Below, piece after piece: positions 22,764 to 58,298 of a stretch of 64,000 nt of DNA. The stretch spans positions 1 through 64,000 of the forward strand of contig JANYGC010000099.1 of NCBI GenBank assembly GCA_025359425.1, written 5' to 3'. A program made the position numbers and the translations under genes. Every line of letters starts with the position of its first letter. The stretch's first letter is position 1. The notes beneath the pieces are model-generated. The model worked only from the letters and a program-made list of their open reading frames with translations, was not told where the DNA came from and made no database searches. Origin of the DNA: Sphingomonadaceae bacterium (GTDB lineage: Bacteria > Pseudomonadota > Alphaproteobacteria > Sphingomonadales > Sphingomonadaceae).

Positions 22764-23666
22764 ATGAGTGAGACTGTCGGCCCGCTGAGTTTCCAGGACA
22801 TGATCCTGCGGCTCCACGCCTTCTGGAGCGAACAGGGCTGCCTGATCCTCCAGCCCTATGACATGCGCATGGGCGCGGGGACTTTCCACCCGGCGACCAC
22901 GCTGCGCGCGCTCGGCCCGGAACCGTGGAAGGCCGCTTACGTCCAGCCGAGCCGGCGGCCCACCGATGGCCGCTATGGCGAGAACCCCAACCGGCTGCAG
23001 CATTATTACCAGTACCAGGTGATCCTCAAGCCCAACCCCGCGAACCTGCAGGAGCTGTACCTCGCCAGCCTCGCCGCGATCGGGGTCGATCCGCTGGCGC
23101 ACGATATCCGCTTTGTCGAGGACGATTGGGAAAGCCCAACTTTAGGCGCCTGGGGGCTGGGCTGGGAAGTCTGGTGTGACGGGATGGAAGTCAGCCAGTT
23201 CACCTATTTCCAGCAGGTCGGCGGGTTCGATTGCAAGCCGGTTGCAGGCGAGCTCACCTATGGTCTCGAACGCCTCGCGATGTACATCCAGGGCGTCGAC
23301 AACGTCTATGACTTGCGCTTCAACGACGCGGGGGTCAGCTACGGCGACGTCTTCCTCAAGAACGAGCAGGAGATGTCGAAGTACAACTTCGAGGTCGCCG
23401 ACACCGCCAGCCTGTTCGACGGCTTTGCCAAGGCCGAGGCCGAATGCCAGCGCTGCCTCGATGCGCAAATCCCGCTCGCCGCCTACGAACAGGCGATCGA
23501 GGCGAGCCACCTGTTCAACCTGCTCCAGGCGCGCGGCGTGATCTCGGTCCAGGAACGCGCCAGCTACATCGGCCGCGTGCGCGATCTCGCCAAGGGCAGC
23601 TGCCAGGCGTGGATCGGCAAGAACGAAGCGCAGTGGCAGGCGGATTACCCGGAGTGGGTGTTGTGA
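22764..23666 (+). CDS. glyQ: Glycine--tRNA ligase alpha subunit
   Basis: [58 protein letters not shown]. Confidence 0.98.
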
Positions 23667-23679
23667 GCGGCTACCCTAA

Positions 23680-23794
23680 GATCCTCCCCCACTGGGGGAG
23701 GTGCCCCGCAGGGGCGGCGGGGGCAAGCCGCGCGACCTCACGGCCCCCCACCGTCAGCGCTGCGCGCTGCCACCTCCCCCAAAAGGGGAGGATC
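23680..23794. repeat. Family A palindromic element in glyQ-glyS spacer
   Basis: Ends GATCCTCCCC...GGGGAGGATC; shares CCACCGTCAGCGC..CGCGCTGCCACCTCCCCCAAAAGGGGAGGAT with 58176-58298. Confidence 0.9.
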
Positions 23795-23798
23795 TAGG

Positions 23799-26072
23799 AT
23801 GCCTGACTTCCTCCTTGAACTGCGCTCCGAAGAAATCCCCGCGCGGATGCAGGACGATGCTCGTCAAAATTTGAAGCGCTTGTTTGAAGCCGAACTCGCA
23901 AATGCAGGGATCAAACCGGATAACATCGCAACGTACGCCACGCCTAGACGTCTGACTTTGATCGCGTACGGCCTGCCGCTCGAAACGCTGGCAGCTAGTG
24001 AAGAACTGAAAGGGCCTAAGACTTCGGCTCCGCCTCAAGCGTTGGAGGGGTTTCTCCGTAAGAATGGCTTGACGCAAAGCCAGCTCGTTGATTGCGACGG
24101 GGTTTATTTCGCGACGATCGATGAACCTGGACGTCGAACCGCAGACATTCTCGCCGAAGCAATCCCGGCGATCATCCGTGCGTTTCCTTGGCCCAAATCA
24201 ATGCGTTGGGGCGGCGCATCCGCATCAACCGAAATGACACGTTGGGTTAGGCCGTTGCAAGGTATCGTTGCCCTTCTTGGTGACAATATCGTCCGTTTTG
24301 AAGTCGCTGGTGTGCTAAGCGATTGTCAGACAATTGGACATCGCTTCCTCCATTCCGGCCCAATCACAATCACGAGTGCCAATTCGGATGAGTATGAGGA
24401 CAAACTGCGTAACGCCTTTGTCATCGTCAATCAGGAAGAACGGCGCGCTATCATCTACGAAGGTGCGCAGAGAGCTGCCGCCGATGCTGGTCTAATATTG
24501 GTTCAAGACCCGAGCCTCGTGGATGAAAACGCCGGCCTCACCGAATGGCCAGTGCCTCTGCTCGGGCGCTTTGACGAAGCCTTCCTCGATGTGCCGCCCG
24601 AAGTGATCCAGCTGACCGCGCGGACCAACCAGAAGTACTTCATCTGCCGCGAACGCACGCCTGAGGGTGCAGAGCAGGGCAAGCTCGCCAACGCCTTCAT
24701 CTGCACCGCCAACATCGTCGCTACCGATGGCGGCGCGGCCATCGTCGATGGCAACCGCAAGGTGCTGGCGGCGCGGCTGGCGGATGCGCGGTTCTTCTGG
24801 GAACAGGACCGCAAGAAGACGCTGAGCGAACACGCCGAGGGCCTCGCGCGGATTACCTTCCATGAGAAGCTGGGAACGGTCGCCGACAAGGTCGAGCGGG
24901 TGGCCAAGCTGGCACGGTGGCTGGTTGAGGAAGGCATTGTCACTGAAACTCCCCTCCCCGGTGGGGAGGGGTTGGGGGTGGGGGTTCCCACCTCGCAGGC
25001 GTCGAACACCCATCCCCAACCCCTTCCCTCAAGGGAAGGGGCTTTGCTGGCCGACCAGGCCGAACTCGCCGCACGGCTGTGCAAGGCCGACCTCGTCACC
25101 GAAATGGTCGGCGAATTCCCCGAACTGCAAGGCGTGATCGGCGGTTACTACGCCGCGGACGAAGGCTTGCCCCAAGCCGTCGCGGAGGCGATCCGCGATC
25201 ACTACAAGCCGGTCGGGCAGGGCGACGATGTGCCCACCGCGCCGGTGACGGTGGCGGTGAGTCTGGCGGATAAACTGGATACGCTTTGCCAGTTTTTCCT
25301 AATTGATGAGGCTCCTACAGGTTCAAAAGATCCGTTTGCGCTGCGACGTGCTTCGCTGAGCATCATATCCCTCATCCTCAGTAACAACTTGCGCTTCCGT
25401 CTACAGGATGTGCTGATCAAGGCCGTCGAAGATGATTTGGCGAAGTTTGAAGTAGTTTGGTTCGGCAATCTCGAAACGAAGCTTGCCTCGTTCCTCGCCG
25501 ACCGCCTCAAAGTCCAGCAACGCGAAGCCGGCGTGCGGCACGACCTGATCGACGCGGTGTTCGCGCTCGGCGGGGAGGACGATCTGGTCCGCCTGCTCGC
25601 CCGGGTCCATGCGCTGCAGGCGTTCATCGGCACCGAGGATGGCACCAACCTGCTCGCGGGGTACAAGCGCGCGGCCAATATCCTCAAGAAGGAGGGCTTC
25701 ACTGCCCCCCTCCCCGGTGGGGAGGGGCTGGGGGTGGGGGTTCCACCGCTGGCGTCGAACCCCCATCCCAACCCTTCCCCAACGGGGAAGGGCTTTAAAG
25801 AAACGCTTTCCTACACCCCCGAACCTGCGGAAAAGGCGCTGATGGATGCGCTTTCAACTGCCGGGCCGCAGGCCGCCGCTGCCGTTGTGGCCGAGGACTT
25901 CGCCGGGGCGATGGCTGCGCTGGCCACCTTGCGCTCGGCCGTTGATGCGTTCTTCGATGCCGTGACGGTCAACGATCCCGAGCCTGCGAAGCGCGAAGCC
26001 CGGCTCGGCTTGCTGGCGCGGTTCCGTGACGCGGTTCACGGAGTCGCCGATTTCTCGAAGATCGAGGGGTAA
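23799..26072 (+). CDS. glyS: Glycine--tRNA ligase beta subunit with two repeat-derived insertions
   Basis: 757 aa GlyS-like ORF; inserts PLPGGEGLGVGVPTSQASNTHPQPLPSREG and PLPGGEGLGVGVPPLASNPHPNPSPTGKG. Confidence 0.96.
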   Translation: MPDFLLELRSEEIPARMQDDARQNLKRLFEAELANAGIKPDNIATYATPRRLTLIAYGLPLETLAASEELKGPKTSAPPQALEGFLRKNGLTQSQLVDCDGVYFATIDEPGRRTADILAEAIPAIIRAFPWPKSMRWGGASASTEMTRWVRPLQGIVALLGDNIVRFEVAGVLSDCQTIGHRFLHSGPITITSANSDEYEDKLRNAFVIVNQEERRAIIYEGAQRAAADAGLILVQDPSLVDENAGLTEWPVPLLGRFDEAFLDVPPEVIQLTARTNQKYFICRERTPEGAEQGKLANAFICTANIVATDGGAAIVDGNRKVLAARLADARFFWEQDRKKTLSEHAEGLARITFHEKLGTVADKVERVAKLARWLVEEGIVTETPLPGGEGLGVGVPTSQASNTHPQPLPSREGALLADQAELAARLCKADLVTEMVGEFPELQGVIGGYYAADEGLPQAVAEAIRDHYKPVGQGDDVPTAPVTVAVSLADKLDTLCQFFLIDEAPTGSKDPFALRRASLSIISLILSNNLRFRLQDVLIKAVEDDLAKFEVVWFGNLETKLASFLADRLKVQQREAGVRHDLIDAVFALGGEDDLVRLLARVHALQAFIGTEDGTNLLAGYKRAANILKKEGFTAPLPGGEGLGVGVPPLASNPHPNPSPTGKGFKETLSYTPEPAEKALMDALSTAGPQAAAAVVAEDFAGAMAALATLRSAVDAFFDAVTVNDPEPAKREARLGLLARFRDAVHGVADFSKIEG
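24951..25041. repeat. Family B palindromic element, copy 1, in frame in glyS
   Basis: CCCCTCCCCGGTGGGGAGGGG plus CCATCCCCAACCCCTTCCCTCAAGGGAAGGGG. Confidence 0.92.
25707..25792. repeat. Family B palindromic element, copy 2, in frame in glyS
   Basis: CCCCTCCCCGGTGGGGAGGGG..GGCGTCGAACCCCCATCCCAACCCTTCCCCAACGGGGAAGGG. Confidence 0.92.
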
Positions 26073-26193: not shown

Positions 26194-28878
26194 ATGAGTG
26201 CCAACGTCTACACCTTCGGCGGCGGTGTCACCCATGACGATCCGCGCACCCGCGACAAGACGATTGTCGGCGGCAAAGGCGCAAACCTTGCGGAAATGGC
26301 CGGGATTGGACTGCCGGTACCGCCGGGGTTCACGATTACTACCGAAGAATGCGTGCGCTACCTCGCCGAGGGGGCCCTTCGACAGGCTCAGGGTGATCGG
26401 GAGTTTTCATCAGAACTGCACGCCGAAGTCGCCAAGGCGCTGGGCCATATCGAGCAAACCGTCGGCAAGAAGTTCGGCAATGCAGCCGATCCACTGCTGG
26501 TCTCGGTCCGTTCGGGCGCGCGGGTTTCTATGCCGGGAATGATGGACACCGTGCTCAACCTCGGGCTCAACGATGCGACCGTTGCCGGGCTGGCACAGAC
26601 TTCGGGCGATGCGCGGTTTGCCTGGGATTCATACCGCCGGTTCATCCAGATGTATTCCGACGTGGTGCTCGGCATCGATCACCACCTATTCGAGGATGCG
26701 CTGGAAATCATCAAAGAAGACAACGGCTTTTATGCCGATGTTGAGATGGGCGCGCAGGAATGGCAATTGCTGGTCGGCGAATACAAGGCGATCGTTGCCG
26801 CCCGGCTCGGCCGCGACTTCCCGCAGGATGTGCACGAACAGCTGTGGGGCGCAATCCGCGCGGTGTTCGATAGCTGGGATTCGGACCGCGCCAAGGTTTA
26901 CCGCCGCCTCAACGACATTTCCGGCGCGTGGGGGACCGCAGTCAACGTCCAGGCGATGGTGTTCGGCAACATGGGCGATACCAGCGCCACCGGGGTGGCC
27001 TTCACCCGCGATCCGGCGACCGGCGAAAAGGCCTATTACGGCGAATGGCTGGTCAATGCGCAGGGCGAGGACGTGGTCGCCGGGATCCGCACCCCGCAGT
27101 ACCTGACCGAAGCCTCGCGCATCCGCGCCGGGGCCAAGCCGCTGAGCATGGAAGCAGCAATGCCAGTGGCTTACGGGCAACTGGCAGACGTTTTCGAACT
27201 GCTCGAAGCGCATTACCACGACATGCAGGACATCGAATTCACCGTCGAACGCGGGCACTTGTGGATGCTCCAGACCCGCAGCGGCAAGCGCACCGCCAAG
27301 GCCGCGCTCAAGATGGCGGTGGACATGGTTGGCGAGGGTCTGATCGACGAGAAGACCGCGATCCTGCGGATCGATCCGATGGCGCTCGACCAGTTGCTTC
27401 ACCCCACGCTCGATCCCACGGCGGCGCGCGATGTGCTCACCAAAGGCCTGCCCGCATCGCCCGGCGCAGCTTCGGGCGCGATCGTGCTCGATGCCGATAC
27501 CGCCGAGAAAGCCGCCGGGCGCGGTGAGGCGGTGGTCTTGGTGCGGGTCGAGACCAGCCCCGAGGATATTCACGGCATGCACGCCGCCAAGGGCATTCTG
27601 ACCGCGCGCGGCGGCATGACGTCACACGCCGCAGTGGTAGCGCGCGGGATGGGCCGGCCGTGCGTTTCAGGCGCGGCGGCCGTATCGATTGATCTGGGCA
27701 CTCGCACGCTGCGGATCGGGAAGCGCGAGATGAAGGAAGGCGATCTGATCACGCTCGACGGCACCACCGGTGAGGTCATGGCCGGGCACGTGCCCACCAT
27801 CGAGCCCGAACTGGTCGGCGATTTCGGGGTGTTGATGGCCTGGGCCGACCAGCACCGCCGGATGAAAGTCCGCACCAACGCAGAAACCCCGGCCGATTGC
27901 CGTACCGCGCGGCAGTTCGGGGCCGAGGGGGTGGGACTGTGCCGCACTGAACATATGTTCTTCGATGCCAGCCGCATCGCTGCGGTGCGCCAGATGATCC
28001 TGGCCGAGGACGAGGCCGGACGCCGCAATGCGCTCGCCAAGCTGCTGCCCGAACAGCGCGCCGATTTCCGCGGGATATTCGAGGAAATGGCCGGACTGCC
28101 GGTGACGGTGCGGCTGCTCGATCCGCCGCTGCACGAATTTCTGCCGCACGCCGATGCGGAATTTGCCGAACTGTCCGAAGTGATCGGAATCGGGGTCGAA
28201 ACGCTCAAGCGGCGGGCGGCGGAACTGCATGAATTCAACCCGATGCTGGGGCATCGCGGTTGCCGTCTGGGGATCACTTTCCCGGAAATCTACGAAATGC
28301 AGGCGCGGGCGCTGTTCGAAGCGGCCTGCGATGTGGCTGCGGCGGGCGAAGCGCCGGTGCCCGAAGTGATGGTGCCGCTGGTCGCCACGCGCAAGGAACT
28401 GGCGATCCTCAAGGACCTGATCGACCGCACTGCGCAGGCGGTGTTTGCCGAGCGGGGCCGCACGTTGGCCTATCATGTCGGCACGATGATCGAATTGCCC
28501 CGCGCCGCGCTGATGGCCGGTGAAATCGCCGAGGTGGGCGAGTTCTTCTCGTTTGGAACCAACGATTTGACCCAGACAACTTTGGGCGTTTCGAGGGACG
28601 ATGCGGCACGGTTTCTGGGGGTTTATGTCGAACAGGGCATCTTCCCGCGCGATCCGTTCGTCAGCCTCGATATCGAAGGTGTCGGCCAACTGGTCAGCCT
28701 GGCGGTGGCGCGGGGCAGGGAAACCCGGCCCGATATCAAACTGGGCATCTGCGGCGAGCACGGCGGCGACCCGGCGAGCATTGCATTCTGCGAACTGGTC
28801 GGGCTCGATTACGTCAGCGCCTCGCCCTACCGGGTGCCAATTGCCCGGCTGGCAGCGGCGCAGGCGGCCTTGGCCTAA
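26194..28878 (+). CDS. ppdK: Pyruvate, phosphate dikinase
   Basis: KTIVGGKGANLAEMAGIGLPVPPGFTITTEECV; GILTARGGMTSHAAVVARGMGRPCVSG. Confidence 0.97.
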   Translation: MSANVYTFGGGVTHDDPRTRDKTIVGGKGANLAEMAGIGLPVPPGFTITTEECVRYLAEGALRQAQGDREFSSELHAEVAKALGHIEQTVGKKFGNAADPLLVSVRSGARVSMPGMMDTVLNLGLNDATVAGLAQTSGDARFAWDSYRRFIQMYSDVVLGIDHHLFEDALEIIKEDNGFYADVEMGAQEWQLLVGEYKAIVAARLGRDFPQDVHEQLWGAIRAVFDSWDSDRAKVYRRLNDISGAWGTAVNVQAMVFGNMGDTSATGVAFTRDPATGEKAYYGEWLVNAQGEDVVAGIRTPQYLTEASRIRAGAKPLSMEAAMPVAYGQLADVFELLEAHYHDMQDIEFTVERGHLWMLQTRSGKRTAKAALKMAVDMVGEGLIDEKTAILRIDPMALDQLLHPTLDPTAARDVLTKGLPASPGAASGAIVLDADTAEKAAGRGEAVVLVRVETSPEDIHGMHAAKGILTARGGMTSHAAVVARGMGRPCVSGAAAVSIDLGTRTLRIGKREMKEGDLITLDGTTGEVMAGHVPTIEPELVGDFGVLMAWADQHRRMKVRTNAETPADCRTARQFGAEGVGLCRTEHMFFDASRIAAVRQMILAEDEAGRRNALAKLLPEQRADFRGIFEEMAGLPVTVRLLDPPLHEFLPHADAEFAELSEVIGIGVETLKRRAAELHEFNPMLGHRGCRLGITFPEIYEMQARALFEAACDVAAAGEAPVPEVMVPLVATRKELAILKDLIDRTAQAVFAERGRTLAYHVGTMIELPRAALMAGEIAEVGEFFSFGTNDLTQTTLGVSRDDAARFLGVYVEQGIFPRDPFVSLDIEGVGQLVSLAVARGRETRPDIKLGICGEHGGDPASIAFCELVGLDYVSASPYRVPIARLAAAQAALA
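26375..26393. repeat. REP-like single element inside ppdK
   Basis: CCCTTCGACAGGCTCAGGG read in frame as ALRQAQGD; same family as 60850 and 50200. Confidence 0.8.
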
Positions 28879-58175: not shown

Positions 58176-58298
58176 AAATCCTCCCCCCCCTGGGGGAGGT
58201 GGGCCGCCGCAGGCGGGTCGGTGGGGGAATGGCGTGCGACATTCATGCCCCCACCGTCAGCGCTTCGCGCTGCCACCTCCCCCAAAAGGGGAGGATTT
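58176..58298. repeat. Family A palindromic element at the xerC 5' end
   Basis: AAATCCTCC...GGGGAGGATTT; near-identical 3' half to 23680-23794. Confidence 0.9.

Follow-up and report, generated by a model that had tools for sequence, protein, structure and literature searches.

How does the gene of an essential enzyme come to carry two related palindromes inside its reading frame, and why do both appear to be read in the same frame? The window, the whole stretch of 64,000 nucleotides analysed here, contains an intact ORF of 757 aa (23799-26072, + strand) that encodes the beta subunit of glycyl-tRNA synthetase, GlyRS beta, the product of glyS (PF02092, E=8.7e-179). The ORF also matches the DALR_1 domain, and the Pfam domains that flank the inserts are intact. 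The ORF directly upstream (22764-23666), named by eye, is presumably glyQ. No second full-length glyS was found in the genome assembly (2.94 Mb in 136 contigs, 94.3% complete), and the gene with the inserts thus presumably serves the cell.

The glyS ORF encodes TETPLPGGEGLGVGVPTSQASNTHPQPLPSREGALLA at the first palindrome, copy A (24951-25041), and TAPLPGGEGLGVGVPPLASNPHPNPSPTGKGFKE at the second, copy B (25707-25792). Copy B is an in-frame two-hairpin palindrome encoding the peptide PLPGGEGLGVGVPPLASNPHPNPSPTGKG, and the ORF reading agrees with the initial annotation in its position, its peptide and its frame. Copy A lies in the same orientation at a start-to-start distance of 756 bp, close to the separation of about 750 bp first proposed. 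Copy A is composed of a left hairpin, CCCCTCCCCGGTGGGGAGGGG (24951-24971, +), the inverted arms TTGGGGGTGGGGGTTC and GAACACCCATCCCCAA with their linker (24972-25019, +) and a right hairpin, CCCCTTCCCTCAAGGGAAGGGG (25020-25041, +). Copy B shares the left hairpin CCCCTCCCCGGTGGGGAGGGG (25707-25727, +), which is followed by the arms CTGGGGGTGGGGGTTC and GAACCCCCATCCCAA with linker (25728-25771, +) and the right hairpin CCCTTCCCCAACGGGGAAGGG (25772-25792, +). The hairpins were delimited from the sequence and a hairpin pattern, and the arms from inverted repeats (I1 in copy A, I2 in copy B) and RNA folding. Each copy is an inverted repeat as a whole, with predicted RNA folds of -68.3 kcal/mol (A) and -70.9 kcal/mol (B) and z values of -5.0 and -4.9, and none of 200 dinucleotide shuffles folded as well. 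A and B share 97% identity over their first 38 nt and 86% over a 28-nt stretch of their second halves. Both copies are read in the PLPGGEGLGVGV frame. The earlier claim that they use one and the same frame of the element holds for the left half, but the right hairpins are read in different frames (PLPSREG in A and PSPTGKG in B).

The element that makes up A and B is a dispersed, REP-dimer-like family. The pattern CCCTYCCC-N2-8-GGGRAGGG has 49 matches in the 2.94-Mb genome against none for the reversed control pattern; the copies were located by this pattern search and then read as stretches. In the element, which is about 85-105 bp long, inverted GGGGTGGGG/CCCCACCCC arms connect two G+C-rich hairpins, and these usually occur as a pair facing each other across the arms. 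The hairpin pairs are mostly intergenic and the majority of copies lie outside conserved reading frames. Rfam returned no match. None of the coding copies, nor the 40 non-coding copies that were read, has a GTAG tag at its termini, which sets the family apart from the GTAG class of REPs. The CGTC class is defined by a CGTC (or TGTC/CCTC) terminus, a stem of 8-9 bp with AT as the first two pairs and a loop of 4-5 nt, and the family falls outside it too, having untagged NCCCC/GGGGN termini and stems that are all G-C except for one A-T pair.

Further repeats are found nearby. The gene that follows glyS, ORF 26194-28878, is a pyruvate phosphate dikinase by Pfam and carries in frame, at 26375-26393, a different repeat, CCCTTCGACAGGCTCAGGG, which encodes ALRQAQGD; the pattern of this repeat has 15 matches in the genome against 0 for the control. 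A palindromic dimer, CCTCCCC...GGGGGAGGTGGC, occupies the glyQ-glyS spacer (23683-23791) and recurs at 58180-58294. Four repeats, namely copies A and B, the dikinase repeat and the spacer dimer, are thus found within 3 kb.

Both inserts are predicted to form disordered loops between helices. An AlphaFold2 model of GlyRS beta, built from 40 sequences, has a mean pLDDT of 84.8 and a predicted fold that matches solved GlyRS chains. In this model pLDDT falls under 50 only at aa 144-149, 389-406 and 638-666. The second of these stretches belongs to insert A and sits between helices 361-377 and 412-427, and the third belongs to insert B and sits between helices 613-631 and 676-697. Copy A fills the loop termed S1 (aa 382-418; 24942-25052, +) and copy B the loop S2 (aa 638-669; 25710-25805, +), as delimited from the model and an alignment of 81 glyS genes. 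The S1 loop comprises only 4-6 residues in relatives that have no insert, and by sequence the aligned blocks are 6 residues apart in E. coli GlyRS and 41 apart in the window protein. The alignment also contains another highly variable stretch, at aa 536 to 561, which reaches up to 87 aa and does not look palindromic.

The reading that we favour, with a probability of roughly 85%, is that a dispersed REP-dimer-like repeat inserted in frame into two surface loops of GlyRS beta, an essential protein, giving copies A and B, and that both inserts are tolerated. A palindromic repeat, spread by some mobiliser, would have inserted into a loop between helices; the insert has no stop and keeps the downstream frame. 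The loop is presumably translated, and the Pro/Gly-rich peptide would stay disordered and so persist in the protein. It is the combination of a loop between helices, an open and preserved frame and a disordered Pro/Gly-rich peptide that would let the inserts persist, and no benefit is implied. It looks as though tolerated mobile 'junk' has become protein sequence.

Copies in other genes show the same behaviour. At least 24 (15%) of a pool of 157 distinct two-hairpin copies, 155 from the window genome and related genomes plus A and B, were found in frame within genes. Since coding sequence makes up most of a bacterial genome, a share of only 15% is in line with the removal of most coding insertions. 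In-frame copies are found in glyS (five, including A and B), valS (four) and truB (two), as well as in ileS, trmD, uvrA, addB, metH, hrpB, lnt and others, amounting to about 18 sites beyond glyS. The host genes were checked against Pfam for 20 of the 24 copies, and the gene names beyond the Pfam families are those we take them to be. A codon-usage classifier alone missed valS, and ORF length together with Pfam was therefore used instead. Antisense ORFs that run through the element at four loci (L274, L294, L312 and L318) resemble genes in length and in codon score; as Pfam matched none of them, they were left out. In valS the element is found at one site, after LGWP, in three genomes and in two frames (L050 2617-2698, L243 1139-1238 and L280), and this site is, judging by these copies, a second hot spot. 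In truB it lies at a similar place, after ...TLS/ALS, in two genomes (L247 1095-1190 and L272 1186-1279).

Two insertions from this shared pool suffice to account for A and B, and the question of their common frame becomes one of how the coding copies as a group are read. It had been supposed that either the frame is selected as translatable, with random frame usage as the outcome that would speak against this, or one copy seeded the other. Random usage was not what the tabulation by location and frame gave. The left-arm frames among the 24 coding copies are PLP in 17, PSP in six and PPL in one, which differs from a uniform distribution (p=0.0002), from the openness of the frames in all non-coding copies (p=0.0003) and from that in the TTCA-loop subtype (p=0.004). 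Counting one copy per gene, site and frame (13:5:1) yields p values of 0.003, 0.005 and 0.025, respectively. Orientation relative to the gene is also biased, at 20:2 (15:2 with one per site), against a split of 14:12 among the non-coding copies that lie between co-directional genes. The tally of frame and orientation in the coding copies was made by eye, and copies within one gene may share ancestry.

These figures would fit a reading in which the element carries a translation-favoured frame and orientation (PLP...PSPEGEG) and coding copies are selected for their peptide beyond mere openness. Much of the skew, however, is avoidance of the PPL frame, which is the one least often open in the TTCA-loop type (30/73), where a TGA in one frame of the right hairpin closes it at standard length. 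That PLP is preferred to PSP is no more than a hint (p=0.02-0.06, or 0.06-0.16 with one per site), weaker still once repeated sites are removed, and one valS site carries PSP and PLP copies in different species. A phase-biased target would moreover look identical to peptide selection, and the two are inseparable in these data. The idea of frame selection is thus borne out as far as non-random usage goes but not as a strong choice between PLP and PSP, and selection for the peptide seems unlikely on balance, though it is the best of the alternatives. That A and B share a frame can be put down to the limited number of open frames, with at most a mild further preference and without any special cause. 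Tolerance gives no account of the orientation bias of 20:2.

The loops of GlyRS beta are occupied far beyond the window. In the window gene and 80 further glyS genes, nearly all labelled Sphingomonadales, palindromic repeats were found at three loops: S1 in 45 of 81, S2 in 23 and S3 in six. S3 (aa 286-291; 24654-24671, +), placed from the alignment and the insert DNA, is empty in the window gene. At least one palindrome is present in 51 of the 81 genes, and two or more in 21. By eye, the inserts can be sorted into about seven families: a CGTC-like family, the window's GGGGAGGGG, CGGGAGGGG, CCTCTCCCCTTCAGGGGAGAGG, TCCTCCCC...GGGGAGGGGGACC and two GTCGAG/TTCGAC types. S3, which follows NQKYF, carries TCCTCCCC...GGGGAGGGGGACC as its sole family in all six cases (L093, L105, L120, L122, L126 and L138), unlike S1 and S2. 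Four of the other families were pattern-searched in the genomes that carry them in glyS and are repeated elsewhere there with no control matches, except that the fourth type gave only one pair in one genome and the GTCGAG pattern was absent from two of four genomes. In other species, palindromes of unrelated families thus occupy the same glyS loops. On a quick tree built without the insert loops at least 34 changes of state are required at S1 and at least 19 at S2, numbers that include losses and replacements and hence are no count of gains.

Inserts at one short loop in 45 of 81 species are more than one would expect of a passive site, and a target preference or a benefit is possible. It might be proposed that the glyS loops, along with the similar valS and truB sites, are true landing pads at which insertion or a disordered loop is favoured beyond tolerance, a proposal to which we give somewhat less credence than to peptide selection. 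If it holds, unrelated palindrome families would have been repeatedly recruited to the same loops in Sphingomonadales.

Gene conversion or duplication, by which one of the two glyS copies would have seeded the other, might be suspected from the 97% identity of their first 38 nt and from A being the best match of B in the pool. Copy A, however, matches the insert in the glyS of a different species (L079) with a score of 73 and B with a score of only 64, and the right hairpins of A and B belong to different subtypes that are found elsewhere in the genome. This half of the original suggestion is unsupported and seeding is improbable. A role of the palindromes in the mRNA, with hairpins that set the translation or decay of the glyQ-glyS transcript, is slightly less probable again. 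It would be in keeping with the very stable folds and with the palindromes in the glyQ-glyS spacer, but it would not require placement in protein loops; the inserts stay open in frame, their families and positions vary, and many species have no insert at all. It is very unlikely that RNA splicing or translational bypass keeps the inserts out of the product: hairpins might in theory serve to mark the site, with nothing direct in favour, yet all inserts seen keep an open frame and avoid the TGA-closed one, for which skipped inserts would have no need, and Rfam had no match. Chance G+C-rich sequence, a pseudogene or an assembly error, for which only the fragmented assembly (136 contigs, 94.3% complete) speaks, can be set aside given the 49 matches against 0, the intact 757-aa ORF with no second full-length glyS found, and the analogous inserts in many separately sequenced genomes.

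The family may be compared with known mobile palindromes. REPINs and BIMEs, which are associated with RAYT transposases, likewise have two opposed hairpin units, a short spacer and many dispersed copies (PMC3116915, PMC2817692). The only Y1_Tnp gene matched in the window's genome (L161), however, has no flanking element in the stretch read, and Y1_Tnp gave no match in several genomes rich in the element. A search of 59 genomes for Y1_Tnp genes, with the sequence on either side read at 14 of the loci, gave no sign of a link between RAYT and the element. The 13 loci other than L161 have no element copy beside the gene, with some sides reaching only about 0.8-2 kb and one unrelated near-match at L157.

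The GTAG/CGTC REPs described in 2013 are short palindromic elements that often form head-to-head dimers and are mostly intergenic, with some lying wholly within ORFs, where they encode 20-30 aa (PMC3733652). The window family resembles them in all these features of form and location and in its synthetase and truB hosts, but has neither terminal tag at its hairpins. Among the hosts of such REPs in E. litoralis and S. alaskensis are tRNA synthetases and truB (PMC3733652), and glyS may be one of these synthetases. Two Xanthomonas species carry different REPs at about the same site of recB (PMC3733652), the nearest case there to what is seen in glyS; the convergence of several unrelated families on the same loops across an order goes beyond it, and no report of multi-family hot spots in glyS loops was found in the open-access literature. 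Rickettsia palindromic elements (RPE) are cited in the same source as lying in frame in ORFs that probably encode functional proteins, and RPE-4 and RPE-6 are there assigned to the CGTC class (PMC3733652), which the CGTC-like glyS inserts of other species, though not those of the window, resemble. The window family shares with RPEs the mode of insertion, the one aspect compared: it is palindromic and multi-copy (49 matches against 0; z about -5) and lies in frame in unrelated conserved genes (24 copies with Pfam domains around them). It differs in clade and G+C content, and the hosts here are free-living. In-frame REPs and RPEs are thus already known, including from tRNA synthetases of two Sphingomonadales, and the window family joins that kind.

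Overall, it would seem that part of the protein sequence of essential enzymes can derive from short selfish palindromes, in more lineages than the reports found had covered. The GlyRS beta of Sphingomonadales amounts to a natural replicated experiment, in which about seven families have been gained or replaced many times at three loops along a single tree. The distinction between neutral passengers and favoured loops thereby becomes testable, as does the filtering of frame and orientation.
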